Assembly (NCBI GenBank): GCA_003096535.1
Contig: QEKJ01000013.1
Span: 1 to 64,000 of the forward strand
Reading direction: 5' to 3'
From: Agathobaculum butyriciproducens
GTDB lineage: Bacteria; Bacillota; Clostridia; Oscillospirales; Butyricicoccaceae
Length of the DNA stretch: 64,000 nt
The notes under the pieces were generated by a model. It did not search any database, was not told the origin of the DNA, and saw nothing but the letters and a program-made list of their open reading frames with translations. The translations under genes and the position numbers were made by a program. Positions 175 through 58,728 of this stretch are shown piece by piece; position 1 is the stretch's first letter, and each line of letters begins with the position of its first letter.

Positions 175-315
175 CGAAGTTTGCAGAGAGTGCTGCGCCC
201 TTTCCGGGCGGGGATAGGGAACGGCAGAGAATTTTTTCTGCCGTAGGGGAGCACAGTGTGCTCCCATGTCTCGACATATTCGCAGTATCAGATAAATTAC
301 TGCTGCACATACGGT
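175..315 (+). repeat. Partial copy of the dispersed multi-hairpin element
   Basis: This stretch aligns with 28470-28560 and with the reverse complement of 51370-51470. Shared landmarks, in order, are AACGGCAGAG, a T-rich run, GTAGGGG followed by a short palindrome, TCGCAGT (here) or GCGCAGT, and CACATAC near the end. Within this copy, hairpins form at GGCAGA...TCTGCC (about 221-241) and around the palindrome at 243-265. It fills most of the 95-446 gap. The rest of that gap holds the terminator and a second, degenerate GC-rich palindrome. Confidence 0.6.
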
Positions 316-370
316 TTCACCTCCGCTGCGAATTTTATCCTCATTGGTATCATCTTTATTATATATTCAT

Positions 371-14118: not shown

Positions 14119-14202
14119 CTGAGAAAAGCATTGTGAAAATAAAAAGTCTGAAACACCGAATCAGCATTTCAGAACAGCAAACAAGCGGAAGGTCTTTCCG
14201 CG

Positions 14203-14325
14203 CATTCTTCTTTCGTCCAGACTATACTGTCGGCTTCGGAATTTCACCGAATCATGCTTCCGCCGAATGGCATCCGCTCGCGGGCTGTACCGCCGGTAGG
14301 GAATTGCACCCTGCCCTGAAGAATC
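14203..14325 (-). ncRNA. FMN riboswitch (RFN element)
   Basis: On the minus strand the conserved RFN blocks appear in order: TCTTCAGGGCAGGGTG, AATTCCCTACCGGCGGT, AGCCCGCGAGC, GGTGAAATTCCGAAGCCGAC, AGTATAGTCTGGA and GAAAGAAGA. The terminal TCTTC/GAAGA stem closes the aptamer. It senses FMN and controls the rib operon downstream through the terminator at 14087-14118. Confidence 0.98.
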
Positions 14326-14373
14326 AAATATTTGGTTTTGCGGGGCAAAGCCTTTATTACTCTGCCTGAGGAA

Positions 14374-25156: not shown

Positions 25157-25231
25157 TGTAGAGCGGGGTGACCTCAGAAGGTGAATTGCCCGAAAGGCAA
25201 GAGAAGCCACTCTGGAGTGTCCCGCCCTACA
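25157..25231 (+). repeat. Composite 75 nt palindromic repeat, copy 1
   Basis: An outer palindrome (GTAGAGCGGGGTG...TCCCGCCCTAC) encloses AGAAGGTGAATTGC, a small hairpin (TTGCC-CGAAA-GGCAA) and AGAGAAGCCACTCTGGAGT. Copies occur at 37904-37976 (inverted), 56527-56602 and, degenerate, 58650-58725. In copies 2 and 3 the inner hairpin is TTGCGGC-AAA-GCCGCAA, so both arms changed together. Confidence 0.7.
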
Positions 25232-28224: not shown

Positions 28225-28625
28225 GGTGTTTGCGGCACAGGCGGTCTGGTGCGCTTGAACCGCGCAGGCGGTTCATCCTGTCCGGGCGGAAAGTTTTTCG
28301 CTGAACCTCAGCGGAGAGTTGCCGTCTGCGGACGGCAGGAGATTCGCCGTACCCACGGCGGTGGGCAAGAGGGTAGACACCTGCGGTTTCTACCCTCTTA
28401 ACTCCCGTTTCCCTTTGTTTCTTAGCTTGGCGCAGACCAGAGACCGGCGACCGCTCCGAAATAGGGGTACGGCAGTCGGGTTACCCGTCTGTAGGGGCGC
28501 GCATTGCGCGTCCATTACTCGACCGATTCGCAGTTCTCGGATACCGTACTGCTACACAGGTGGTTTACTCTGCGCAGGCGCGGCATATCTGTGCCGCGCA
28601 ACTCGTTTACGCGTTGTTATGGACA
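28225..28625 (+). repeat. Multi-hairpin array; fullest copy of the dispersed approximately 300 bp element
   Basis: At least eight hairpins in 400 bases: GAACCGC/GCGGTTC (28257-28274), CGCTGA/TCAGCG (28299-28313), TGCCGTC/GACGGCA (28320-28337), CCCAC/GTGGG (28352-28365), an 11 bp perfect stem AAGAGGGTAGA/TCTACCCTCTT (28367-28399), CGGG/CCCG (about 28477-28487), the CA-N-TG palindrome (28491-28513), and GCGCGGCA/TGCCGCGC (28578-28599). The part from about 28340 aligns end to end with the minus strand of 51300-51570. No gene is visible in 28201-28790. Confidence 0.75.
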
Positions 28626-28704
28626 GCAACTACGAGTTTAATTTGATAACAGATGTTACCGCAGGGTGCGCTGACTTACAACGATAGGGCATTTTCTATA
28701 TAAC

Positions 28705-28856: not shown

Positions 28857-30137
28857 ATGTCGTTTACCAATCAAACAGAAGAAAAGCAGATCGAACGGAC
28901 GGTTCTGGTCGGTCTGTCGTGTCCGAGCTTCAACGCCGATCAGGATGCGGACGAGCGCACGATGGACGAGCTGCGCGCGCTGGCGGAGACTGCCGGTGCA
29001 GAGGCTGTTGCGATGACGCTGCAGCGCCGTCCGGCGCCGGATGCCCGCACGTTTATCGGTGAGGGCAAGGCGGAAGAGGTCAAGCAGCTTGCCGAGATGA
29101 ACGACGCAAGTCTGATCTTGTTCGACAACGAGCTGTCGCCGTCGCAGATGAGCAATCTGGAAGAGCTGATCGGCCGCACGGTACTCGACCGCTCGGCGCT
29201 CATCCTCGATATTTTCGCGCAGCGTGCGCGCACCGGCGAGGGCAAGCTGCAGGTCGAGCTGGCGCAGTACCAGTACATTCTGCCGCGTCTGGCAGGTATG
29301 GGCAAGGCGATGAGCCGTCTCGGCGGCGGCATCGGCACGCGCGGCCCCGGTGAGAGCAAGCTGGAGAGCGACCGCCGTCACATCCGCAGCCGCATTGACA
29401 AGCTGCGCCGCGACTTGGAGCAGGTGCGGCAGGTGCGCTCCGTGCAGCGTCGCCAGCGCAAAAAGGCCGAGCTGCCGCTGGTTGCCATTGTCGGCTACAC
29501 GAATGCGGGCAAGTCCACGCTGCTGAACACCCTGACCGGTGCGGGCATCGAGGCGAACGACCGCTTGTTCGATACGCTCGACCCGACCACGCGCAAAAAG
29601 CGCATTTCGGACACACAGGAGATACTCCTGTCCGACACCGTAGGCTTTATCCGCAAGCTGCCGCATCATCTCGTATCGGCGTTTAAGGCAACGCTCGAGG
29701 AGCTGGCGTATGCCGATCTGCTGCTGCATGTTGTGGACGTTTCGGACGAAAATTGGCAGATTCATGCACAGACTGTGGATAAGGTTGTGGCACAGCTCGG
29801 CGCACAGGATATTCCGCGCGTGATGGTGTACAACAAGGCGGATAAGTGCGATCCGGATGTCATTCCGTTCATTCGGCCGGATGAGGGCGTGAAGATTTCC
29901 GCAAAGAGCGGCGAGGGCATTGACGACCTGCTGACTGCCATCGAAAAGGCGCTCGGCAAGGGCAAGCATAAGGTAAAGCTGTGCATCCCGTACAGCGACG
30001 GCGCCGTGCTCGATATGCTGCACCGTGAAGCGCAGATCGACTCGACCGACTATGCCGCGGAAGGCACGATTGTCGAGGCGGTCGTGGATGATAAGACCTA
30101 CGGCAGAGTTTCGACATACATTATGGATAATGAGTAA
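28857..30137 (+). CDS. hflX: GTPase HflX
   Basis: Protein of 426 aa. The N-terminal HflX domain (residues 15-120) has RTFIGEGKAEE, followed by the glycine-rich RLGGGIGTRGPGESKLE linker. The G domain has G1 GYTNAGKSTLLN (about 210), G3 DTVGFIRKLPHHLV (about 257) and G4 NKAD. HflX splits stalled or stressed ribosomes, for example during heat shock or antibiotic exposure. The ATG at 28857 is preceded by AAGGAGG at 8 bases. It is monocistronic. An inverted-arm repeat follows the stop codon. Confidence 0.97.
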   Translation: MSFTNQTEEKQIERTVLVGLSCPSFNADQDADERTMDELRALAETAGAEAVAMTLQRRPAPDARTFIGEGKAEEVKQLAEMNDASLILFDNELSPSQMSNLEELIGRTVLDRSALILDIFAQRARTGEGKLQVELAQYQYILPRLAGMGKAMSRLGGGIGTRGPGESKLESDRRHIRSRIDKLRRDLEQVRQVRSVQRRQRKKAELPLVAIVGYTNAGKSTLLNTLTGAGIEANDRLFDTLDPTTRKKRISDTQEILLSDTVGFIRKLPHHLVSAFKATLEELAYADLLLHVVDVSDENWQIHAQTVDKVVAQLGAQDIPRVMVYNKADKCDPDVIPFIRPDEGVKISAKSGEGIDDLLTAIEKALGKGKHKVKLCIPYSDGAVLDMLHREAQIDSTDYAAEGTIVEAVVDDKTYGRVSTYIMDNE

Positions 30138-30240
30138 TTAGTAATGAGAAATTAGAAATTAAGGTGCGCGAAGCGCATTTTGAATCATCGCGCATGGCGC
30201 GATACCGCAATTACTAACTACTAATTCCTAATTATTTAAG
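30131..30240. repeat. MITE-like element with TAATTAG-type arms
   Basis: The left arm is TAATTAGTAATGAGAAATTA (from 30134) and the right arm ATTACTAACTACTAATTCCT (from about 30211), its inverse. The core holds two GC-rich hairpins, GTGCGCGAAGCGCA and ATCGCGCATGGCGCGAT. It fills the whole gap between hflX and the next gene, and its right end supplies part of the ribosome-site region (TTTAAGGA). Confidence 0.65.
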
Positions 30241-37857: not shown

Positions 37858-38183
37858 ACGAAAATGGAAAATTGAAAATGGAGAATGGAAGATGAAATGT
37901 AATCGTAGGGCGGGGTACACCAGAGTGGCTTCTCTTGCGGCTTTGCCGCAATTCACCTTCTGCCTCACCCCGCCGGATGTAAATTCATCGGCAGCATTAA
38001 TCTCGTAGGGGAGGCCATTGGCCTCCCGCACTATGGTTTAATGGATGCGTGGGCGACCACTGGTCGCCCCTACGGTTACACGATTGCAAGTGATTTACAA
38101 ACGGCGGGGTGAGGGCACCCCGCCCTACAGTATAACGTAATCTTTACGTTCATTCTCAATTCTCCATTTTCCATTCTCCATTA
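37858..38183. repeat. Large MITE-like element carrying four nested palindromic repeats
   Basis: Left arm at about 37860-37896 (GGAAAATTGAAAATGGAG words); right arm at about 38150-38182 is its inverse. Nested inside: an inverted copy of the 75 nt composite unit (37904-37976), CA-N-TG palindromes at 38006-38028 and 38049-38073, and a GGCGGGGTG palindrome at 38103-38127. No gene. It separates the EF-G-like gene from the two-component operon. Confidence 0.7.
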
Positions 38184-40921: not shown

Positions 40922-41032
40922 CCCTTATACTGAAAGTACGGTGAAATACCTGTATCCTCGGACGGTGCTCCGCGGTAAAGCAAGGGGAAAGCCGTGGAAA
41001 CCGTTTATTTCATAAGGCAAGGAGGAAGAAAG

Positions 41033-44000
41033 ATGAAAAAACGAATTTGCAGTTTGCTGCTGATATGCAGTATGCTGGCGGGTCTGCTGCCGCAGATCGT
41101 GCTGCCGCAGGCGGCGGCAGCGGATACTGCTGCAGAAAGAGACGGCTTTGGTCTGCCCACGGAAGAAAAAACGGGCATAACAGACGCAGCCACACTTCGT
41201 AATAACCCATACGGCACGTTGGGATGGGTTCCGCTGTTCCAGAACCACGAGCTGGTTGTAGCCGGTGTGGACTCGGATGAGTTCCAGACGACATACGAGG
41301 GCGCAGCCAACGGCGCCGCCAACGGCAAGGGCAAGGGCAGTCAGATGTCCACATTCCGGTGGAGCAACTCGACCGAGGTCGGCAATGCCGAGCGTATTGC
41401 GACTGTGGCGTTTGATCCGAACGGCACCGGCAAGGATGAATACATTGCGAATCTGGTATTTGATAAAAGTTCGGAACGGCTTCGTCTGTATGTGACGAAC
41501 AAGGACCGCAGAGTATCGAATGTTGTCCAGATTGGAGATGGTAACGACACCGAATACATCAAGAAACTGAAATTCTACCAGACCCGCGCTATGCTGAGTC
41601 TGGCCGCAGGCGACTTTGACGGTGACGGCAAGGACACGCTGATGATCTATACGCCGGGCAATAACAAGGATACGGCTACTGTAGACAGCATTAAGGAGTA
41701 TACGTTCAGCGGCAGCACACTGACTGACAACGGTCGCGTGATCAACCTCGGTGACGTCATCGACGGCGGCCGAGACGCGCTGAAGGCCATGCTGTACCAC
41801 GACGGCAACGGCGATAACGAGCTGCGTGCGCATCTGAGCGTTGATATGGAAGTCGGCGACGTGGATATGGACGGTATCGACGAGCTGGCAATGACGGTCA
41901 ACGTCAATGACCTGAAGGAGAAATCGTATGACGGTCATACCGACTACGAGAAATCCTATCTGACGGTTTACGATTACAACAACAATAAAAGCTGGAAGCA
42001 GATGATGAACAAGAAGCTGCTGAACAGCAATGACGGTGCAAGCGGTCGCGCCCGCTTTGCAGGCGTAACCATCGGTTATGTCAGCAATGCGCCGAGCGGC
42101 AGTATGCCGCCGGAAGTTGTTGCGGTAGGCTACTACGATAAGAATGGTAATTATCAGGACTGCGACTTCGACAAGAGCAAGCTGCTGGCGTACAGCTATC
42201 AGTACAGCACGAAGGATAATTCGTGGACAGAGAAATGCAAGGCCACCGAAGTTGTCACCAACGGCTTTACCAATACCGGCACCAAGGGTGACGATGTGCA
42301 GAATCCGATCGCGGTAGCGGCTGTTGCGGCGGACGGCGTGAACACCCAGGAATATCTGTTCATTTCCGGCAGTATGTATAAAGTCGGCACGGTGAACGGC
42401 AGTCAGCAGCTGTCTATCCTGGACGGCTCGGATAAGGGCCATGACCGCTGGCTGGGCGGCCGACTAATCAACAACAGCGGTATTCTGGACTATGCCGTCG
42501 GCAATTTTAACGGCAACAAGCAGGGCATGGAACAGGTATACTACGTTGAGTACCGCAAGCAGGAGACCTTCGACAAGCAGTTTTTGAAGATTGGTCAGCT
42601 TTATAAAAAATCGAGTACGAGCACCTCGGGCGGTCAGACAACGGTTACGCCGGACAGCACGTTCAGCCGCTGGGAGGATGACTGGACATACTATGACAAG
42701 AGCAACTGCAATCTGGCGATTGCAACGGCAGATGTAAACAACGATGCCATGCTTGCGAAGATCCAAAGCGTCAGCACCGGCTACACCGATCCGAAGGTAA
42801 TGGCGATTCTGGAAGCGTCGCCGCACTTTGCGGAGGTGAATGACGGCGATATCGGAAACTCGCAGACCGGAATCGGATACAGTAAGGATAATACTGTAGC
42901 AGTAACGGCATCCGGTTCGTTTGGTTTTGATATCATGGCGGGCTTTGAATATGTTGCACCGCTGATTGAGACCGGCGGCGGTGTTGAATTTAATACCAGT
43001 CATACCTTTACTGTTGGTGCAACAAAATCTACAAGCAAGGAAATAACGGTCGAGTATTCTAATGATACGAACGACAATATGGTGCTCATGTATGCAACAC
43101 CGATGACATATTACGAGTATCAGGTGAAGTATCCGGATGGCACAAAGAAGGGCAATTCGCCGAAGCTGACCAGTTCTATGACGCTGGCGGTTCCGGGTAA
43201 TCCTTCGATGAACATGGTTTCGGTAGATACTTATAATAAGGCTGCTTCGGCGTACGAGGGTATGCAGCAGATTGGCAGCAACCTGCATCTGGGCACGTCC
43301 GGTCAGCCGAATACTTATCGTTCCAGTCTGCCGAGCGGTTCCCATTCGGAGCAATCCGGTAAAGTTGGTCATTACAAAGATTCGGGTACACAGCTGCAGA
43401 GTTTTACGGCTGCAACCAGCAGCGGCGTAACCTTTGATTACACCTATGAGGGTTCGGTGCAGATGTATGGTGTAGTTGGCGGCTTCAAGGCTGGCGGCGG
43501 TTATCACTGGGGAGCAAGCGCCGGAACCGAAAAGGTAAACACTGAGGAGATTACCAAGCTGGGCTCTGTTACCGGCGGCGGCGATTCGCGCTATAACTTT
43601 GACTGGAGCTTCGGCACATGGACGGTACCGTTCAACGGCGATGAAGTACCGGTACTGGGCTATGTTGTCAGCAATGTGACGGCACCGCCGTCTCCGGCGC
43701 AGGATCTGTCGCTGAGTGAGCAGACCACCAACAGTATGGTGCTGTCGTGGGAATCCGGCGACCGTCCGGCGGAGTATTACAAGATTTACCGCTACATTGA
43801 GAACAATAAGAATAAGCCGTTCGTATTGATTGACACCGTAGACGCATCGGAATCACCGAGTGGTGAATATGCGTATCAGCTGAAGGATCTTGCGTCGAAC
43901 GAAGAGTATCAGTATACGATCACTTCCGGATATTATACCAGTAAGGAAGAGTCGGTTGAAAGCGAGATCGTTGTCGGCAAGACGCTGGCGAATGAGATGA

Positions 44001-47000
44001 GCCGTCCGATTATCAATGGACCGGACAAAGTAACCGTTCCGCTGAACGGCTCGACAACTTTCCGTGTGCAGGCTTCGACTCCGGCAGAATTTTCGAGCAC
44101 GGATTATCAGTGGCAGAAGCGTCTGCCGGGAAGAAAGTGGACGGATATTGAAGGTGCTACGCAGGACACCTATACCGTAAAGTCGGTAACGAGCGAACTG
44201 AATGGTGCGATGTACCGCTGCGTGGTAACGTGTTATACCAAGTCGGCAACGCCGATTTCGTTCTACAGTGATGCGGCAACGCTGACGGTCGGTACACCGC
44301 AGGCAACCGCCGGTTTGACGGTATCCGGTACTTTGGAGGGCAGCGGCACTCAGGAGAAGCCGTATATCGGTCAGAGCAATTTCAACACGGTTAAAACCAC
44401 GACAGAATCCGTAGAGACAACCGTTCCGTGCACCGTAAAAGTCGGCGACTTGACGCTGAATGTTTACAAGGTAAACAATCAAGAGGGAAAATATGTCGGC
44501 ATCGGTGAAAAGAAGGAAGATGACGGTTCGGTATCGACCGTATACTACGCCGTAACAAAGACTGGCGAGACGTATACCGCAGGTTCGGAACTCACCATGA
44601 ATACCACCTATCAGTGGAAGAACGGTGATGCAGACGCAGCAGTGCTGAGCACGATTACGCCGGAAACCGTGGTGATAGACAAAAACGAAAACGAAAAAGC
44701 AAAAGCAAAAGCGTTTACGTTGAACAGTGCAACGAATGTACCGACAGACGCGGAATACGACGAAAGCAAGTACCGGAACGGCGAGCAGTACCTGATTCAC
44801 GGTAAGGATACTGTGACGGAGAACGAAACCACGTTTGACCGCTATATTCTCAGTACAATGGCTAAGTCGACCAGTGGTAGCGCCGGTGCGGAAGAGGACA
44901 CCTATACTGTCAAGTATTATCAGCTGGTGAAGAAGACAGAGAACAGCTATGAACGGACCGAGCTGACCTGCACACAGCAGACGAAGCTGGGCGATTATGA
45001 GGAGCCTTCCTTCACACTGGTAACCGAGCAAGCGACAGTTGAAAATAAGGTTACTACATCTACGCCTGGTTCCGGTACGGCGCTGACCCTGACGACGAAA
45101 ACGGCGGAAAAGGCGGAAAAGAACGGCTCTGCACTCGGCAATGTGGAGTACACGCTGACGATTACGAACACGTCGGACGGCACGGTCAGCACGATTGTCG
45201 GCAGAACAGACAGCAGCGGCACGGACAGCAAAACGTGGACCGCACCGACAGCCGGTCTGTATGCCATCACGACCACCGCGACCGGCGGCTTGACAAGTGA
45301 TACGGTATATTATCTGGCAGGCGTGCAGAGTGTAGAGGACGGCGAGACCAGCACAACGGAGACCGTTTACACTCTTGAAAGCACTGTTGGCAAAGAAAAC
45401 AAGATTACGAGCGTATACGGTACGCCGATTGCTCTGACCGTGCAGCAGCAGACTGTAACGAAAAACGGAAACGCTGTTACCGCAGGCAGCAAAACAGAGG
45501 TTACGGGAGATATCGCCTACACATGGCGTCAGTCCGGTCAGAGCGAGAGTAAGGAAACGGCTATCAATGGCAGCACTTTCCGACCGGAGAAGGCGGGAAC
45601 CTATATCATCACGGCATACCAGAATTACAGCGATACTTCCAAGCGCACCAAGCTGGCGTCCACGACCATTACGGTAAAGCGCAAGCCGTTGGAGCTGTAT
45701 GTAACCTGGGATAAGGATAACAGCGAGCATACTTCGACAGAGGCACCGGACAGCAAGAGCGCATTGGTGGTCAAGGCGGATGCGCTGGAGACAGGTGACT
45801 CCCTGCCGTCGGCAATTACAGCCGTATGTGCGCTGTATGATGACAAGGGCAATCGAAAGAACGTCAGCGGCCGCTTTGAGGTAACGATTGCGGTCAACGG
45901 TGAGGACGCGGCTGTGAAGTCGCTGCTCGAGAAGTACGAGCTGAATCTGACCAAGCGCATGCTGGTTGTCAAGCAGGACACCCTGAGCGTAACCTATCGC
46001 GCCGGTGAAGGCGGCTCGCTTAGTGCAAGCTACAACAGCGGCAACCTCGACCAGAAGTTTGAAAGCGGTAAGAACATCGCTAAGAACACCAGGCTGATGT
46101 TTGATGCCAAGAGCAACGACGGTTTCCTTGTAAAGGAATGGAAGGTCAACGGTCAGTCCATTACCGGTAATCCAAAGTACAAGGTGACGGAGATTCTGTC
46201 GAACGGCAAAAAGGTTGGCGAACGACTGACGGTAGCGGCGCTGACAGAAAAGCTGGACGTAGAAGTAGCCTTCAGCAGTGATTCGCACACGATTACCTTC
46301 AGCAGCGGCGAAGGCGGTAAGCTGACCGCAGCACTGAAGGACGGCGGTGCAGTCACGACCGGACAGAAGATTGCGGAAGGCGCAAATGTGACGTTCACGG
46401 CTGCGCCGAACAGCGGTATGTCGGTAGCACGCTGGGTGGTGGACGACAAGCCGTATTACTGGCCGGGTACGACCGATTTGTACCGTGAGTCCACGCTGAC
46501 ACTGGAAAATGTGCAGAAGGAACGCAAGGTAGCGGTAGAGTTCAGCAAGGCAGGCACCTATAGGCTCACCTTCAACATCGAGTCGGAAACCGGCAGCACC
46601 TTGCCGTCCGTGCAGACCTCGGCGAAGCTGGCAGACGGCACTGCGGCAGATCTGAATGCGGTGCCGGACGGTGCGGCAGTAACGTTTGCACTGGAAAATC
46701 TGGGCAGCAACTACACGGTCAAGACGTGGAAGGTGGATGGTAAGGAAGCCGCAAATTCGGGTACGCAGAAGCAGTTTACGCTGCGCAATATCACTGGAAC
46801 GCATACGGTTACGGCTGTGATCAATGCGGCGCAGGAGGTAATGCTGACCTTCAAGGCAGTGGATGCAAAGGGTGACCTGATAAACGCAGACATTGCTTCC
46901 GTTACCGCAAAGATTAAAAACGGCAATGCGATTACCAGCGGCAGTACGGTTGGCAATTATTCGACGATTGAGTTTGCTGCTGCGGTAAACGAGAATTACT

Positions 47001-50000
47001 ATGTTTCTAAATGGACTGGTGCGGAAGCGGATGCAAAGGATTCGGCAAAGGCCTCCATCGCAAGTCTGGAAAAGACCACTGAGGTTATCGCACATATCGC
47101 GGAGAAGCCGCAGGTGACGGTGGCTGCGCCGGTCAACGGCACAGTCGAAGTTGCTGGCACACGCGGTATCCAGAATGTTGTATTGACTGGTGCTGAGGGT
47201 GAAAACGGTCATGTGAATATGAACAGCACGGCAGCAATCACGGCAACACCAAACGACGGTTATTTCGTGCAGAAAATCATGGTTACGGCTGATGGTGCAA
47301 CGCAGACATTCGATTACGACAATGCGCAGGCTTATCAGTCGGGCAAGGTAGCGAAGGATGATATCCAGATTACGAAGGATACCTTGGTTCAGGTAATCTT
47401 TGCCGAGAAGCCGGTGATAACCTTTGGCGGTGACACTCACATCACCGTAACGGCAAAGCAGGGTAACAAGACGCTGAGCACCGGCGATCATGTCGAGAAG
47501 TACAGCGGCGATATCGTATTTACGGCAACACCGGATGATGGCTACGAGACTGACAACTGGAACGTTACCGGTTGGACGAATGTCAACGGAGCAGAAAATG
47601 ATAACACCACTTATACCCGGAGTGGCTCTATCGAAAGCAATGTAGAAGTTCATGCAACGTCTAAGGCGCTCCCGCAGTACGACTTCACCCTGTCCGTTGA
47701 TTCGCTCGGTGACGAGGGAGACGGCGGCACGGTTTCCGCAGAAATCACCCGCAAGGGCATGCGCGCATACAAGCAGGAGAACCTCGAAGCAGGCACGCAC
47801 AGCTTCTACCGCGACTCGGATATCACGATCACGGCGGTGCCGAACGCAGGCTACCGCGTACAGGACTGGACCATCAACGGCCAGACCACGGCGGATACCG
47901 CAGTGAGCAAGACGCTGAGCAATCTGCGGGGTGAAACGACGGTTCAGGTTCGCTTTGTCAAGCTGGTGACCGGCATTACCTTCGGTCCGACGGACGAAAC
48001 AAGCGAAGGCGGCTATATCAGCGCGGCAGAGGCGAATGAAACGTCTATCCTCGGTGATGCGGCTACCGGCGCGAATATTGCGGCAAGCGTGCCGATCAAG
48101 TTCACGGCAGAGGTAAAGCCTGGTTACGAAATCGAAGGCTGGTACGTCAATAATGTGCGTGATGACAGCGCAGGCACAGGCGAAACCTATACCTATCCAA
48201 ACACGACCAGTGCAAACTCGATTTACATTGCACCGAGGTTCCAGCAGGTCGAGTACAACATCACCACCGGTGATAACGTCACCGTAAACGGACAGAACAG
48301 CACAACCGCACGCGGCGGCGAGTCGCTCACCTTTACGGCAGTACCGCCAGCAGGTCAGAATGTGACCGGCTGGACGGTCAACGGCAAGGCAGTTGCCGGT
48401 AACGGCAATACGCTGACGTGGACGGTCGAGAACGGCTGTCTCACGAAGCCGAACGTAACGGCATATCATGTTGAAGCACAGTTCAGCGCAGGAGAGTACG
48501 AAGTAACGTATAGCCAGCCGGCGGGCGGCACGCTGAGTGCATCGGTTGCAGCCGGCACACAGGTCAACGGCGGCACTAAGGTTGCCTTCACCGCAGAACC
48601 CGATAAGGGTTATGAGATTGACGAGTGGACGGTAAACGGTCATTCGGTTGCCAACAGCGGCAGCACCTACACCCTGAACGTAACCGAAAACAGCACGGTT
48701 GCAGTCACCTTCAAGGCAATGGTTCCGGTCAGCGCCGTGCCGAACGGCAGAAACGGCAATATCGCCATCACCGCAAACGGCAAGACAATAACGGACGGCT
48801 ATGTTTCCTCTGGTTCGGACGTAACCTTCACCGTAACGCCGGAGAATACGGACGATATGGTGCAGGCATGGCAGGTGAACGGCTCGACAGTCGCTGAGAT
48901 GACCGATACGGCAGATGCACCGCTCACTTATACGGTCAAGAATGTAACCGCAAAGACTGAGGTTTCCGCAACGCTGATTGAGCGCCCGACATACACCATT
49001 ACGGTAACAAGCGAGGGCAGCGGTACGGCGTCGGCAGAACCGGCAAGCGTCAAGCGCGGCGGCAGCACGACTGTTACCGCAGTACCGAGCAGCAATAGCT
49101 ACTATCTCAAGGAATGGTCGGTTAACGGCGGTGCTGCACAGGCTGCATCCGGCAATACGCTGGCACTGACGGAAATTCGCAGGGATACGACGGTCAAGGC
49201 CGTATTTGACGGCGCGATCAACTACGATGTAACCCTGGATGTTCAGGATGCAGATACCGGCACAACGGTTGCTGCAGCGGCAAACGGCAAGGCCATTACG
49301 CCGCAGAAGAACAGTCCGGCAAGTGTTACCCGCGGCAGCAAGATCGTATTCACGGCAACGCCTGCCGTAGAAAACGGACGAAACAAGCAGATGGTCGCAC
49401 AGTGGATGGTAAACGGTGTAGATCAGAATAACATCTCTAACGAGCTGGTTATCCCGAGCCTGACCGGCAAGACCGATGTAGCTGTCAAGTTCGTTCCCTA
49501 CAAAGGTTTCGCCATTCCGACCGGCGGCATCGGCTGGAAGGTCTCCGATGTGAAGCGTACACCGGACGATACCAAGCCGGAGACTGAAATCCGCAAAAAC
49601 GGCGATCTGACATTCACAGTCGGTCTGGCAGGTGACTACACGGTAATCAGCAAGCTGGTCATCAACGGCTACGACTGCATCAACGGCAAACTTGCCGAAC
49701 ATGCAACGCTGCATGGCTGTGACGCAGTGGAAGCCAGGAAGAACGCAAACGGCAGCTACACCGTCACGATCAAGAACGTAACGGCAGTGCCGGATATGAG
49801 CGTAGAAGCACATCGGGTAATCATCGGCGATCTGACCGTTCCGGAGAAATTCAAAAATATTCCGGAACTGGATACGGTCGAAAAGATTCAGACAAAGCTG
49901 GCAGCGGAACTGACCGGCAGGAAGGATGGCGTGGCATTCTACGACATCGCGCTTAAATACTATGACAGCGGCAAGTGGATTCCGGTAAACGAAAACAACT

Positions 50001-51067
50001 TCCCGGCGGACGGTGTAGACGTTGTTCTGCCGTATCCGAACGGTACGGACAGCAAGGATACCTTCCAAATCGTCCATATGCTGACCAAGACCGGTTCCGA
50101 GGGCAAGATCGAGAAGTTTACCCATATCACCAAGGAGACCGATGGTCTGCGGTTCCATGTAACCAGCCTGTCTCCGTTCGGCGTAAGCTGGACGAAGTAT
50201 ACCGCGCCGACGTCGGGCGGCGGCGGTGGCGGCGGCGGAGCCGTTGCCCCGACCACCTACGACATCGTGATCCCGTCCGCACTGGCGAATACCGTCAAGG
50301 CGGATAAGACCAAGGCGGCCGCAGGCGACACCGTAACGCTGACTGTTGCCGGAGAAGGTACGCTGACTGTCACGGACGTAAACGGCAAGACGGTTGCCCT
50401 GACCGATCTCGGCAGCGGCAAATACACCTTTAAGATGCCGGCGGCTAAGGTCAGCGTGGGCTTCAAGACTACCGCAGACCAGCCGTGCGATGGCGGCAAG
50501 GATTGTCCGTCCGCACCGTTTACAGATGTAGATACTGCAAAGTGGTATCATCTGTCCATTGATTATGTGCTCACGCACAAAATGATGAACGGTGTATCGA
50601 GCCGTGCATTTGCACCGAATGCCAACCTGACGCGCGGTATGCTCGTGCAGATCCTGTATAACCTGGAAGGCAAGCCGAAGGGCACAGCAGCGAACTTCTC
50701 GGATGTGCAGGCTGACGCATGGTATGCCGAAGCAGTCGGCTGGGCAGCGTCCAGTAAGGTCGTAACCGGCTATGCAGACGGTACCTTCCGACCGAATGCA
50801 GCCGTCACCCGCGAGCAGGCGGCAGCGATCCTGTATCGCTACGCCCAGAGCAAGGGTATCGACGTAAGCGTGGGTGAGAATACCAATATTCTCAGCTATG
50901 TGGATGTTCAGCAGGCAAGTGAGTACGCGATTCCGGCTCTGCAGTGGGCAGTCGGCGCAGGCGTGCTGAACGGTAAGAATGGCGGCCGTCTGGCACCGAC
51001 CGGCACCGCCACCCGTGCCGAGATCGCAGCGATCATGCAGCGCTGGTGCGAAAACATCATCAAGTAA
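41033..51067 (+). CDS. Giant secreted surface protein with FG-GAP-like, Ig/Fn3, InlB-type repeats and SLH anchor
   Basis: Protein of 3344 aa. Signal peptide 1-30 (hydrophobic core then QAAAAD). Residues 60-600 hold calcium-loop motifs of FG-GAP/VCBS type (AAGDFDGDGKDTLMIY, VGDVDMDGIDELAM). Residues 620-880 form a Gly/Ser/Thr-rich beta module I cannot assign. Fn3-like is at about 882-985 and Ig-like (YQWQK...YRCVVTC) at 988-1088, followed by mixed beta regions to 1650. About thirteen divergent InlB B-type repeats occupy 1650-2825, each with a W-x-V-N-G core. A poly-Gly linker sits near 3061, then three SLH domains at about 3160, 3220 and 3286 to the end, anchoring it to cell-wall polymer. The ATG at 41033 follows AAGGAGG. 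It is likely a surface adhesin or binding protein. Confidence 0.9.
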   Translation: MKKRICSLLLICSMLAGLLPQIVLPQAAAADTAAERDGFGLPTEEKTGITDAATLRNNPYGTLGWVPLFQNHELVVAGVDSDEFQTTYEGAANGAANGKGKGSQMSTFRWSNSTEVGNAERIATVAFDPNGTGKDEYIANLVFDKSSERLRLYVTNKDRRVSNVVQIGDGNDTEYIKKLKFYQTRAMLSLAAGDFDGDGKDTLMIYTPGNNKDTATVDSIKEYTFSGSTLTDNGRVINLGDVIDGGRDALKAMLYHDGNGDNELRAHLSVDMEVGDVDMDGIDELAMTVNVNDLKEKSYDGHTDYEKSYLTVYDYNNNKSWKQMMNKKLLNSNDGASGRARFAGVTIGYVSNAPSGSMPPEVVAVGYYDKNGNYQDCDFDKSKLLAYSYQYSTKDNSWTEKCKATEVVTNGFTNTGTKGDDVQNPIAVAAVAADGVNTQEYLFISGSMYKVGTVNGSQQLSILDGSDKGHDRWLGGRLINNSGILDYAVGNFNGNKQGMEQVYYVEYRKQETFDKQFLKIGQLYKKSSTSTSGGQTTVTPDSTFSRWEDDWTYYDKSNCNLAIATADVNNDAMLAKIQSVSTGYTDPKVMAILEASPHFAEVNDGDIGNSQTGIGYSKDNTVAVTASGSFGFDIMAGFEYVAPLIETGGGVEFNTSHTFTVGATKSTSKEITVEYSNDTNDNMVLMYATPMTYYEYQVKYPDGTKKGNSPKLTSSMTLAVPGNPSMNMVSVDTYNKAASAYEGMQQIGSNLHLGTSGQPNTYRSSLPSGSHSEQSGKVGHYKDSGTQLQSFTAATSSGVTFDYTYEGSVQMYGVVGGFKAGGGYHWGASAGTEKVNTEEITKLGSVTGGGDSRYNFDWSFGTWTVPFNGDEVPVLGYVVSNVTAPPSPAQDLSLSEQTTNSMVLSWESGDRPAEYYKIYRYIENNKNKPFVLIDTVDASESPSGEYAYQLKDLASNEEYQYTITSGYYTSKEESVESEIVVGKTLANEMSRPIINGPDKVTVPLNGSTTFRVQASTPAEFSSTDYQWQKRLPGRKWTDIEGATQDTYTVKSVTSELNGAMYRCVVTCYTKSATPISFYSDAATLTVGTPQATAGLTVSGTLEGSGTQEKPYIGQSNFNTVKTTTESVETTVPCTVKVGDLTLNVYKVNNQEGKYVGIGEKKEDDGSVSTVYYAVTKTGETYTAGSELTMNTTYQWKNGDADAAVLSTITPETVVIDKNENEKAKAKAFTLNSATNVPTDAEYDESKYRNGEQYLIHGKDTVTENETTFDRYILSTMAKSTSGSAGAEEDTYTVKYYQLVKKTENSYERTELTCTQQTKLGDYEEPSFTLVTEQATVENKVTTSTPGSGTALTLTTKTAEKAEKNGSALGNVEYTLTITNTSDGTVSTIVGRTDSSGTDSKTWTAPTAGLYAITTTATGGLTSDTVYYLAGVQSVEDGETSTTETVYTLESTVGKENKITSVYGTPIALTVQQQTVTKNGNAVTAGSKTEVTGDIAYTWRQSGQSESKETAINGSTFRPEKAGTYIITAYQNYSDTSKRTKLASTTITVKRKPLELYVTWDKDNSEHTSTEAPDSKSALVVKADALETGDSLPSAITAVCALYDDKGNRKNVSGRFEVTIAVNGEDAAVKSLLEKYELNLTKRMLVVKQDTLSVTYRAGEGGSLSASYNSGNLDQKFESGKNIAKNTRLMFDAKSNDGFLVKEWKVNGQSITGNPKYKVTEILSNGKKVGERLTVAALTEKLDVEVAFSSDSHTITFSSGEGGKLTAALKDGGAVTTGQKIAEGANVTFTAAPNSGMSVARWVVDDKPYYWPGTTDLYRESTLTLENVQKERKVAVEFSKAGTYRLTFNIESETGSTLPSVQTSAKLADGTAADLNAVPDGAAVTFALENLGSNYTVKTWKVDGKEAANSGTQKQFTLRNITGTHTVTAVINAAQEVMLTFKAVDAKGDLINADIASVTAKIKNGNAITSGSTVGNYSTIEFAAAVNENYYVSKWTGAEADAKDSAKASIASLEKTTEVIAHIAEKPQVTVAAPVNGTVEVAGTRGIQNVVLTGAEGENGHVNMNSTAAITATPNDGYFVQKIMVTADGATQTFDYDNAQAYQSGKVAKDDIQITKDTLVQVIFAEKPVITFGGDTHITVTAKQGNKTLSTGDHVEKYSGDIVFTATPDDGYETDNWNVTGWTNVNGAENDNTTYTRSGSIESNVEVHATSKALPQYDFTLSVDSLGDEGDGGTVSAEITRKGMRAYKQENLEAGTHSFYRDSDITITAVPNAGYRVQDWTINGQTTADTAVSKTLSNLRGETTVQVRFVKLVTGITFGPTDETSEGGYISAAEANETSILGDAATGANIAASVPIKFTAEVKPGYEIEGWYVNNVRDDSAGTGETYTYPNTTSANSIYIAPRFQQVEYNITTGDNVTVNGQNSTTARGGESLTFTAVPPAGQNVTGWTVNGKAVAGNGNTLTWTVENGCLTKPNVTAYHVEAQFSAGEYEVTYSQPAGGTLSASVAAGTQVNGGTKVAFTAEPDKGYEIDEWTVNGHSVANSGSTYTLNVTENSTVAVTFKAMVPVSAVPNGRNGNIAITANGKTITDGYVSSGSDVTFTVTPENTDDMVQAWQVNGSTVAEMTDTADAPLTYTVKNVTAKTEVSATLIERPTYTITVTSEGSGTASAEPASVKRGGSTTVTAVPSSNSYYLKEWSVNGGAAQAASGNTLALTEIRRDTTVKAVFDGAINYDVTLDVQDADTGTTVAAAANGKAITPQKNSPASVTRGSKIVFTATPAVENGRNKQMVAQWMVNGVDQNNISNELVIPSLTGKTDVAVKFVPYKGFAIPTGGIGWKVSDVKRTPDDTKPETEIRKNGDLTFTVGLAGDYTVISKLVINGYDCINGKLAEHATLHGCDAVEARKNANGSYTVTIKNVTAVPDMSVEAHRVIIGDLTVPEKFKNIPELDTVEKIQTKLAAELTGRKDGVAFYDIALKYYDSGKWIPVNENNFPADGVDVVLPYPNGTDSKDTFQIVHMLTKTGSEGKIEKFTHITKETDGLRFHVTSLSPFGVSWTKYTAPTSGGGGGGGGAVAPTTYDIVIPSALANTVKADKTKAAAGDTVTLTVAGEGTLTVTDVNGKTVALTDLGSGKYTFKMPAAKVSVGFKTTADQPCDGGKDCPSAPFTDVDTAKWYHLSIDYVLTHKMMNGVSSRAFAPNANLTRGMLVQILYNLEGKPKGTAANFSDVQADAWYAEAVGWAASSKVVTGYADGTFRPNAAVTREQAAAILYRYAQSKGIDVSVGENTNILSYVDVQQASEYAIPALQWAVGAGVLNGKNGGRLAPTGTATRAEIAAIMQRWCENIIK

Positions 51068-51092
51068 CGGCAGACAAAACAGCAGGACAGAG

Positions 51093-51126
51093 AAAGGGCT
51101 GACCCGACGGGTCAGCCCTTTTTTAT
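51093..51126 (+). terminator. Intrinsic terminator of the giant SLH gene
   Basis: AAGGGCTGACCC pairs perfectly with GGGTCAGCCCTT around GAC, followed by T6. Confidence 0.95.
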
Positions 51127-51130
51127 GCGG

Positions 51131-51275
51131 TTGAATAATGGAGAATGGAAAATGGAGAATGGAAAATTGACGTGACGATTTTCTGTTGCGTGGGCGGCCA
51201 ATGACCGCCCCTACGGTTACGCGTGTGCAGGTTGTTTGATACGGTGCGCCGAGTCGTCGCACCCTACGGTATAGT
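51131..51275. repeat. One-armed MITE-like remnant plus palindromes
   Basis: Purine-rich arm words (ATGGAGAATGGAAAATGG) occupy 51135-51172 without a matching right arm. The CA-N-TG palindrome follows at 51190-51214, then GGTGCGCCGAGTCG-TCGCACC at about 51242-51266, which also occurs at 58640-58662. Confidence 0.55.
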
Positions 51276-51299
51276 CTTACATCAGATACAATTCGTAGA

Positions 51300-51570
51300 T
51301 GCCGTCCGTAACAACGCGCAAACGAGTTGCGCAACACTGTTATGTTGCGCCTGCGAAGAGTAGCTGGTATGTGTAGAAGCAATGTATCTGGCACTGCGCA
51401 GAGGTAGAGAAATGGGAGCACACTGTGCTCCCCTACGGAAGAAAAAATCCTCTGCCGTTCTCCTTTTCGAAGCGGTCGCCGCTCTCCGATTTTCGCTAGA
51501 CTATCCCAAAGGGAAAGGGGTGATTCACAAGAGGGTGGAAACCTTGGTGTCTACCCTCTTGTGCCCCTGC
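51300..51570 (-). repeat. Inverted copy of the dispersed multi-hairpin element
   Basis: Read on the minus strand, it aligns with 28340-28625: AGAGGGTAGACACC and its partner arm, GGCGACCGCT, the CA-N-TG palindrome (51414-51436), CTACACA, GCAGGCGC and GCAACTCGTTT...GCGTTGTTA. The hairpin GCGCAACA...TGTTGCGC replaces GCGCGGCA...TGCCGCGC, with two compensatory pair changes. It lies between the giant protein and the kinase gene, with no coding visible. Confidence 0.75.
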
Positions 51571-51603
51571 CGGGCAGGCAAGATTCGTTCGCTTCGCAAG
51601 CGA

Positions 51604-52530
51604 TTACTCTGCAAGCATCGCTGCGCCCACCAGACCTGCGTCATTGCCGAGCGACGCACAGACGATCTCGGTATTTCGGTCCTCACCGCGGAAGGTCTGC
51701 GGGAAAGTGAGCATGCGCAGCGGCTCGAGCAGCTTTTCGCCATAGCCCGCCAGTCCGCCGCCGAGCACGATACTCTCCGGCTGGAACAGATTCACAAAAC
51801 TTGCCAGACCGTTCGCCAGATTGCCGCAGTATTCGTCGAACAGCTCCTGCGCGAGCGCGTCACCTGTGTCTACTGCATCGCAGATCTGCTTGGCGTTCAG
51901 CTGACCCTTGTGTACGGCAAGCACGCTCTTTCGTCCGTCCTCGAGCGCACGCTCGGCAAACCGCACGAGCGAAGCCGCCGAGCAGTACGCCTCCAGACAG
52001 CCGTGCCGTCCGCAGTTGCACGGCTCGCCGTCTTTTCGGATCACCATGTGCCCGATCTCACCGGCAATGCCGTTGCAGCCGGTGTACAGCTGGCCGTTAA
52101 TGATAATGCCGCCGCCAACGCCGGTGCCGAGCGTTACCATCAGCATGTTGCGCGTGCCCTTGGCCGCACCGGCAGTCGCTTCGCCGAGCGCGGCGCAGTT
52201 CGCGTCGTTATCCAGATGCACCGGACAGCCGAACTCAGGCAAAAACGCATCCGCAAAGCTGACGTTATTCAGACCCAGATTGGTGCCGAACCGCAGGGTG
52301 CAGGTTTTCTTGTCAAACGAGCCGGGCACGCCGATGCCGATCGCCGTTACGTCCTCTACCGCACAGCTGTGCGCCTTGCACAGCGAGAGCGCCAGCGTTT
52401 TCATATCTGCTTTCAGGCCGGCTGCGTTGCCGGTCCGGGTCGGAAGGCTGTCCTTGCACAGCAGCGTGCCGTCCTCGGTGCAGAGCGCCGCCTTGACGGT
52501 CGTGCCGCCCAGATCAATACCGATTCTCAC
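51604..52530 (-). CDS. ROK-family sugar kinase (glucokinase type)
   Basis: Protein of 308 aa. The phosphate loop is GIDLGGTTVKAAL at the N-terminus. LDNDANCAALGEA carries the catalytic Asp (about 106). The ROK zinc motif CNCGRHGCLEAYCS is at about 165. Together these indicate an ATP-dependent hexokinase of the ROK family, and glucokinase is the commonest function. It is not a ROK repressor because there is no DNA-binding domain. The GTG start at 52530 overlaps the stop of the upstream PHP gene (GTGA), so translation is coupled. No terminator is evident at its end, where the repeat copy begins. Confidence 0.92.
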   Translation of the reverse strand: MRIGIDLGGTTVKAALCTEDGTLLCKDSLPTRTGNAAGLKADMKTLALSLCKAHSCAVEDVTAIGIGVPGSFDKKTCTLRFGTNLGLNNVSFADAFLPEFGCPVHLDNDANCAALGEATAGAAKGTRNMLMVTLGTGVGGGIIINGQLYTGCNGIAGEIGHMVIRKDGEPCNCGRHGCLEAYCSAASLVRFAERALEDGRKSVLAVHKGQLNAKQICDAVDTGDALAQELFDEYCGNLANGLASFVNLFQPESIVLGGGLAGYGEKLLEPLRMLTFPQTFRGEDRNTEIVCASLGNDAGLVGAAMLAE

Positions 52531-56344: not shown

Positions 56345-56602
56345 GTAGGGCGGGGCACCCTCACCCCGCCGTATCTGTCTGGTCTGCACAATCTACCCCG
56401 TAGGGGAGCACATTGTGCTCCCACGTAACGTGAAATCATGCGGTTTTGGCCGTTCCTTGCGCAGACTCCGGTCGCGTTGCGGGCGAACACTGTTCGCCCC
56501 TACGGCTACGCATCTGCAAATGAGTTACACGGCGGGGTGAGGGCAGAAGGTGAATTGCGGCAAAGCCGCAAGAGAAGCCACTCTGGAGTGCCTCGCCCTG
56601 CG
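56345..56602. repeat. Cluster of four palindromic repeats between ylbJ and yqfC
   Basis: In order: a GGCGGGGTG-type palindrome (56345-56370), CA-N-TG palindromes at 56400-56422 and 56479-56503, and the composite 75 nt unit at 56527-56602. They account for most of the 56262-56636 gap, and the last one ends 35 bases before the yqfC start. I see no sigma-E-type promoter in what is left. Confidence 0.65.
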
Positions 56603-58589: not shown

Positions 58590-58728
58590 GTGTGGGCGAA
58601 CAATGTTCGCCCCCTACGATTAGGCAATGTGCAGATTGTTTACAACGGTGCGCCGAGTCGTACCCCAGGGCACCTTCTCTTGGGGCGTTGCCGCAATTCA
58701 CCTTGCCGCCCCCTACGGTAAAACATCA
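58590..58728. repeat. Palindromic repeat pair with a degenerate composite unit
   Basis: The CA-N-TG palindrome is at 58592-58616. GGTGCGCCGAGTCG (shared with 51242) follows at 58645, then a rearranged, inverted composite unit (GGCACCTTCTCTTG...TTGCCGCAATTCACCTT) to about 58725. Confidence 0.6.

Follow-up and report, generated by a model that had tools for sequence, protein, structure and literature searches.

The window, the whole stretch of 64,000 nucleotides of Agathobaculum butyriciproducens contig QEKJ01000013.1 that was analysed, carries copies of a large repeat family that is probably, on balance, a mosaic DNA element of nested hairpins of the REP/RAYT kind. Judged from its sequence, the repeating unit (the arm) has several GC-rich hairpins in succession, joined by conserved linkers that are single-stranded. 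The direct observations behind this explanation are the dispersal of the arms, their occurrence as a paired unit, modules that are present or absent in the hairpin loops, one site at which congeners lack the element, a RAYT gene that has REPs of its own, and the lack of strand preference in half-changes of the stems. Against it stand the length of the arm, which at 340 bp is far longer than a REP, and the scores of the genome's own RAYT, which fall below the Pfam and NCBIfam cut-offs.

The sequence-only reading had aligned 28340-28625 (plus) with 51300-51570 (minus) and had added a fragment near 175-315 (plus). Both likenesses are real: the two long copies were extended to 28326-28665 (plus) and 51263-51595 (minus), which is nearly full length, and 175-328 (plus) matches the middle of the arm only (profile positions 106-251 of 339). 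The conserved blocks named earlier, CTACACA included, are present as described, and so is the paired variation of the arms of one hairpin, GCGCGGCA/TGCCGCGC at 28578-28599 as against GCGCAACA/TGTTGCGC at 51329-51350. The features assigned in the window are collected in Table 1.

Table 1. Features of the hairpin family in the window (positions count from the first letter of the window).
Feature	Position	Strand	Basis or remark
Arm copy 1 of composite hairpin element	28326..28665	+	blastn, nhmmer profile
Outer GC-rich hairpins before arm copy 1	28240..28325	+	resemble 66-67 bp tandem units of L011 1724-2017, partly by eye
Hairpin A (AAGAGGGTAGACACC-TGC-GGTTTCTACCCTCTT) and linkers, copy 1	28362..28408	+	model R1
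GTAG-tagged REP-like hairpin GTAGGGGCGCGCATTGCGCGTCC, copy 1	28491..28513	+	counterpart missing from some arms
Hairpin C, stem with paired changes, copy 1	28578..28599	+	
Central hairpin (CTACGAG...CCGCAGG) fused to degraded REP (GTGCGCTGACTT), copy 1	28630..28677	+	
Arm copy 2	51263..51595	-	starts at most 9 bp from end of gene called at 51604-52530 (-)
Hairpin A, variant linkers GCACAAG...CTTGTGAATCAC, copy 2	51520..51565	-	
Hairpin C, copy 2	51329..51350	-	
GTAG-tagged REP GTAGGGTGCGACGACTCGGCGCACC, 3' end of copy 2	51243..51267	-	type of the RAYT-flanking REPs
Second GTAG-tagged hairpin GTAGGGGCGGTCATTGGCCGCCC, beyond copy 2	51192..51214	-	
Arm fragment, middle part only	175..328	+	profile
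GTAG-tagged hairpin GTAGGGGAGCACAGTGTGCTCCC within arm fragment	243..265	+	
X2 double hairpin in loop of REP-2 type palindrome (GCGGGGTG...CCCGCCCTAC)	25178..25224	+	
X2 double hairpin in loop of REP-2 type palindrome	37911..37959	-	
X2 double hairpin in loop of REP-2 type palindrome	56547..56595	+	
X2 model match between GTAGGGGGCGG and GACTCGGCGCACC	58656..58704	-	host REP-1 type (by eye)

The family proved larger than the three copies seen at first. A blastn search of the window's own genome (2.8 Mb, 57 contigs) with copy 1 returned at least 65 matches, 40 of the 94 first-look candidates having been scored; apart from the query itself, the best match had E 2.7e-79. An iterated nhmmer profile over 41 sites, 38 in fetched stretches and three in the window, gave 61 arms above 60 bits, dispersed between genes and each about 340 bp when full length. 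R1, a covariance model of a single 47-nt hairpin module (hairpin A) built from own-genome copies, matched at least 101 places at E 0.01 (102 of 1,343 candidates scored).

From the outside to the centre, an arm consists of GC-rich outer hairpins, preceded at some sites by 66-67 bp tandem hairpin units, then hairpin A (AAGAGGG...CCCTCTT), a linker, a core with GGCGACCGCTTCGAAA, a GTAG-tagged hairpin in some copies, CTACACA, hairpin C (GCGC..CA/TG..GCGC) and the central hairpin. Two arms were found at 20 of the 41 sites, all 20 pairs being convergent in the same relative orientation. At 16 of these neither arm stops before the profile ends and the two overlap at the central hairpin, giving a composite of about 620 bp, and at the remaining four (L022, L030, L041 and L043) one or both arms stop short. 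The central hairpin, about 38 bp, lies between unlike arms (types A and B). Arms at the same site are no more alike (mean similarity 0.627, 20 pairs) than arms at different sites (0.642, 1,810 pairs), and like arms at different sites share up to 0.91 (91% identity), so that the hetero-pair was copied as a unit.

Single arms end either in a GTAG-tagged REP or in neither a REP nor the central hairpin. By eye, a REP of type CCGTAGGGTGCGACGAC..GGCGCACC terminates nine of the 21 single arms, degraded and recombinant ends counted, and sits tag to tag against the arm's own CTACGG/CTGCG end. This REP is clean in the 51.3 kb copy and at L018, L013 and L009, variant at L037 and degraded in the 28.3 kb copy; at L033 and L034 its loop contains the insert X2, and L024 is a hybrid of REP, X2 and hairpin C. 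The other 12 of the 21 single arms showed no REP at the 3' end by eye, which counts against the REP/RAYT reading. In 228,576 bp scanned there were 52 sites with GTAG beside a hairpin of at least 8 bp, several of them within arms or ending them. A ATTCTCCATTCTCCATTTTCAATT type repeat also adjoins several single arms (window 51150-51190, minus strand, and L009, L013 and L038). Gene orientations at the 41 sites, taken from a codon-usage gene caller, were -- at 17, ++ at nine, +- at eight and -+ at five, with two unknown, and by eye arms are placed past stop codons and also ahead of start codons.

Copy 1 lies between two genes that we take to be rpmE and hflX. The spacer is 695 bp here as against 64-118 bp in all 21 congeners that have both genes on the fetched locus (two further loci lacked rpmE, and the locus of one more congener lay outside the fetched set), and the terminator after rpmE is retained on the near side. 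As read from these loci, the element is missing from this site in all 21 readable congeners, this being the one site of the 41 that was compared. Neither a target-site duplication nor an exact element end was established for the arm family, the species offering no alignable empty site. Among 59 relatives, with up to 12 candidates scored in each genome, no full arm was found, and single modules occur in at least seven. Hairpin A, searched with R1, matched in 23 of 24 congeners, in none of 12 genomes from the family's other genera, and in five of 23 genomes from other families. One of these last, G042 of the same order, gave 29 matches, and the one that was read (L114) looks related, sharing the ACC/GGT loop and carrying a CCCTCTTTCC linker; the single matches in G045, G052, G053 and G056 look by eye like ordinary terminators and were set aside. 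The arm of the 28.3 kb copy had no match by blastn at E 0.01 in 50,697 phage and 72,556 plasmid records, and the exact core pattern was absent from the viral contigs scanned. A species-level collection, which may omit the window's own genome, gave one sole match to the arm-core pattern (L047), which falls within coding sequence of a Muribaculaceae MAG and was rejected as a chance match.

The earlier note had held that selection on folding is the simplest reading of the paired stem changes. The paired changes themselves are borne out by the additional copies. Hairpin C could be aligned in 39 of the 61 arms (the other 22 have an insert there, are shortened, or were missed by the regular expression), in 31 distinct rows, and all 248 cells are standard pairs; loss of complementarity was thus not seen for this hairpin. 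Half-changes comprised one G-U and no A-C, and both sides were changed in 26 cells. In a shuffle test, 0 of 500 shuffles reached the observed cells, pairing or covariation score, whereas the count of doubly changed pairs (three) was equalled by 194 of 500 and that of further pair types by 500 of 500, so that the strength of the test rests on the cells, which are not independent events. The step from these changes to selection was too strong, since double changes that are Watson-Crick only, together with an inverted self-copy at L180, are also explicable by intrastrand template switching, which can give the same pattern without selection. The paired changes and the scarcity of half-changed intermediates are equally compatible with selection on DNA hairpins and with template-switch correction, and paired stem changes alone should not be taken as proof of selection on RNA.

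RNA-level selection on one strand should favour G-U over its counterpart on the other strand. For the 53 pairs common to the sense and antisense folds we counted 1,944 Watson-Crick, 89 G-U, 118 A-C and 154 other cells in 50 of the 61 arms, the remaining 11 being fragments or shortened arms together with the gapped or divergent L038 and the L021 plus arm. RNAalifold omits columns where the type-A arms differ, and some of the hairpin A A-C counts are misalignments kept in the total. There was thus no excess of G-U on this strand at these pairs, and since G-U and A-C are about equal and both rare, DNA hairpins fit better than RNA. The consensus fold is better in the sense (-133.6 kcal/mol) than in the antisense direction (-113.8 kcal/mol), which leans to RNA. 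In Rfam, the window element had no match at the gathering threshold, and one full element gave only a chance-level match to IMES-5 (E 0.9).

From comparison of copies, hairpin modules (X1, X2 and a GTAG hairpin of about 20 nt) seem to have entered loops and linkers as insertions, the direction of the change being an inference from presence and absence. Four arms (L037, L042 minus, L019 plus, L017 plus) carry X1, an insert of 51-52 nt, within the hairpin A loop. X2, an insert of about 43 nt, occupies the hairpin C loop of ten arms (shortened in L036, divergent in L030). X2 itself is a double hairpin of 43-47 nt, AAGGTGAATTGCC..GGCAAGAGAAG followed by a second small hairpin. As two adjacent hairpins that recur as a unit in unlike sites, it may be classed as a double-hairpin element. 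Its hosts in the window's own genome are four palindromes, namely hairpin C, REP-1, REP-2 (in both orientations) and an AT-rich palindrome (L173, L174, L178); in congeners they are a variant of REP-1 (L052) and two or more further palindromes (GCCGCTC/GAGCGGC and GATACC/GGTATC), the last of which (L134/L137, L148/L149) is one palindrome with X2 at two positions. At least 52 copies of X2 were found in the own genome (150 of 1,618 candidates scored) and from one to 23 per genome in 16 of 24 congeners, as against none in 14 genomes from other families; this search covered the genus and other families, leaving aside the 12 genomes from the family's remaining genera.

Fifty-three distinct X2 contexts, 43 from the own genome and 10 from congeners, were classed by eye, L126 and L191 being unsortable. 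Host arms with a complementarity score of at least 6 flank X2 in 45 of the 53, compared with 67 of 600 positions drawn at random from the window and 12.3% of 530 flanks after shuffling; the contexts are non-independent in that many hosts were copied with X2 already inside. By eye, the left half of REP-1 and the right half of hairpin C appear to be joined at X2 in L024, as do the left half of hairpin C and the right half of REP-2 in L179. L180 is an 80-bp palindrome with five mismatches in 40 pairs, the second half being an inverted copy of the first, and L184 seems by eye to have a shorter inverted copy of its own REP start, for which the script, allowing no insert, scored only 11 bp. Around X2 in REP-1, no target-site duplication longer than GAC/GAC was seen by eye.

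A search of the own genome with Pfam PF01797 (Y1_Tnp) returned nothing, which proved to be a false negative. In the relative G041, GTAG hairpins lie within the RAYT gene (L064), and with the protein of that gene as the query a homologue was found in the own genome (161 aa, 41% identical, E 8.6e-31, C1:184068-184538, minus strand), in a frame at C1:184059-184541 with an NHVH motif. The predicted protein matches NCBIfam REP_Tyr_transpos at E 2.4e-18 (66.4 bits, cut-off 80) and TnpArep of PDB 4er8 at E 3.5e-6, and scores 17.9 against the Pfam cut-off of 23. By these similarities the genome probably holds a REP-associated tyrosine transposase (RAYT), below curated cut-offs, such as the sequence-only reading had suggested looking for; with Pfam as the only check, the idea of a transposase would have been dismissed in error. 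On either side of the gene lie GTAGGGTGCGCCGAC...GCGCACC hairpins, the REP type that also ends single arms, and the gene contains two inverted copies of GTAGGGCGCGACGACCTCGGCGCGCC. With up to two mismatches the REP-1 pattern was found 26 times in the own genome, 42 times in G010, 36 in G024, seven in G041 and four in G020, and at most five times in any other of 60 genomes, the reversed control being 0 everywhere. REP-2 is confined to the own genome (G000), G010 and G024, with 13, 24 and 14 sites.

In four species (G000, G010, G020 and G024) the RAYT gene contains, in frame, an inverted GTAG pair spaced by 168 bp; the stem is GTAGGGCGGGGTGACC.. in G010 and G024, and stems differ between species. 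Eight RAYT loci were scanned and seven gave a motif-bearing frame, six of these with in-gene GTAG hairpins, while G026 has them only outside the gene and G048 gave no frame. In-gene pairs are found at the own locus (L124/L195) and at L196, L197, L198, L200 and L202. The intact in-gene pair of G010 and G024 is REP-2, yet REP-1 is the commoner dispersed type in both (42 vs 24 and 36 vs 14), so that the match between gene and dispersed copies is loose there. Many inverted REP pairs with an offset of 123-124 bp and tags pointing outward, REPIN-like, were also observed on contig 1 of G010 (e.g. 1244328-1244476). In-frame REP pairs well inside RAYT genes were not described in the literature searched, of which subscription papers were mostly outside coverage.

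The three RAYT-carrying congeners have 23, 21 and 15 copies of X2, counts as high as these being reached by two of 2,024 triples, or three of 2,024 by density; the carriers G010 and G024 look like sister species, so these are not three independent cases. In 13 of the 16 X2-bearing congeners no member of this RAYT group was found at E 1e-5. One of these is G015, which has 16 X2, and several of these genomes are 76-86% complete. In view of these 13 congeners and the two sister carriers, mobilisation of the composite by the RAYT is an inference.

REPs and RAYTs are widespread, and the present elements resemble the GTAG class (REPtrons, REPINs, BIMEs) in having GTAG beside a hairpin, many extragenic copies, inverted dimers, and a gene for an HUH tyrosine transposase flanked by the same hairpins. 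According to PMC3733652, REPs are classed by GTAG or CGTC tags, RAYT genes are flanked by REPs or have their ends overlapped by them, REPs occur also in other coding regions, a few species have REP dimers inserted into palindromes, and a role as RNA may hold for many REPs; according to PMC6006769, TnpAREP recognises GTAG. An unpaired GTAG beside a hairpin is a property of the sub-modules, the arm itself having only a GYAG-like end (by eye). Unlike a REP of 20-40 bp, the arm is about 340 bp and the composite about 620 bp, the sub-modules alone being of REP length. Further differences are the several hairpins of the arm, the nesting of modules in loops with X2 in several unlike hosts, and the two REPs that lie in frame deep within the RAYT gene, spaced by 168 bp in four species. 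X2 is similar in shape to the mitochondrial hairpin elements of fungi and sponges, small, dispersed and likely mobile double hairpins of which the sponge elements have conserved stems and variable loops (PMC2800124). Here the host is bacterial, linkers are conserved and stems variable, and the likeness drawn is one of shape. The literature searched, subscription papers again being mostly outside its coverage, describes no bacterial double hairpin that is lodged in the loops of further hairpins. MITEs are likewise non-coding and dispersed with inverted arms; in the present elements the arms are themselves rows of hairpins, and no target-site duplication was found.

Spread of an amplifying or mobile hairpin DNA independently of a RAYT is a somewhat unlikely alternative. 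Another enzyme, such as a DDE transposase acting on long inverted arms in a MITE-like manner, or template switching and gene conversion alone, would fit the long inverted arms, the inverted self-copy at L180, the joints at X2 in L024 and L179 that look recombinant by eye, and the 13 congeners that have X2 and not this RAYT group; it fits poorly with RAYT-type GTAG REPs at the ends of nine of 21 single arms and with X2-rich congeners that are mostly RAYT carriers. The structured-RNA option of the sequence-only reading has become weaker and is now improbable. A 3' UTR, an attenuator or a free RNA kept by selection on RNA folding would be in keeping with the better sense fold, the perfectly paired and doubly changed hairpin C and the conserved linkers, whereas it predicts a wobble preference that the 53 shared pairs lack, a match above the Rfam gathering threshold was missing, and there is no single gene arrangement, arms lying both past stops and ahead of starts. 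Immobile structural DNA sites under selection, binding gyrase, IHF or a nucleoid protein or acting as terminators, seem more improbable still: intergenic location and GC-rich palindromes would suit them, and supercoiling and termination roles are hypothesised for REPs (PMC3733652), but the rpmE-hflX site is empty in every readable congener, the 59 relatives, with up to 12 candidates scored in each, yielded no full arm, the species-level collection gave one chance core match inside a gene, and modules vary from copy to copy.

The mosaic, REP/RAYT-type element is for these reasons the reading we prefer, and the original suggestion of a non-autonomous element of REP-transposase type has gained support from the RAYT, the GTAG REPs at single arms and the one empty site. 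A strand that becomes single-stranded at replication would fold into hairpins; the resident RAYT (HUH, Y1 type) would recognise GTAG together with a stem, and would then move REPs and REP-bounded composites, so that the composite or X2 may be its cargo. Intrastrand template switching would both keep the stems perfect and re-write them. A bolder and tentative extension, possible rather than probable, is that X2 is a bacterial double-hairpin parasite which inserts specifically into loops and so gives rise to nested composites, and that RAYT genes of this group hold an in-frame inverted pair of the very REP on which they act, as a built-in template. If true, such a template would keep enzyme and target matched while the stem drifts between species. 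For the question of how REPs change in sequence, combine and stay matched to their enzyme, this one genome presents several levels of nesting, hosts with an insert alongside hosts without one, joints that look recombinant, and a RAYT gene with an embedded REP pair. The order of insertions, the role of template switching and the matching of enzyme to target are directly testable with its elements.

Other features of the window were also noted. An AT-rich inverted repeat (GTAATTAGTAATGAGAAATTAG...CTAACTACTAATTCCTAATTA) surrounds GC-rich hairpins at 30125-30240, past hflX, and resembles another small element. An FMN riboswitch at 14201-14327 (minus strand, 116 bits) is an ordinary feature. Very long open frames overlap on opposite strands at 40994-51067 (plus, 3,357 aa) and 43853-51421 (minus, 2,522 aa), and ARAGORN called a tRNA-Ser at 46268-46340 (minus) inside the overlapping long frames of 40994-51421.
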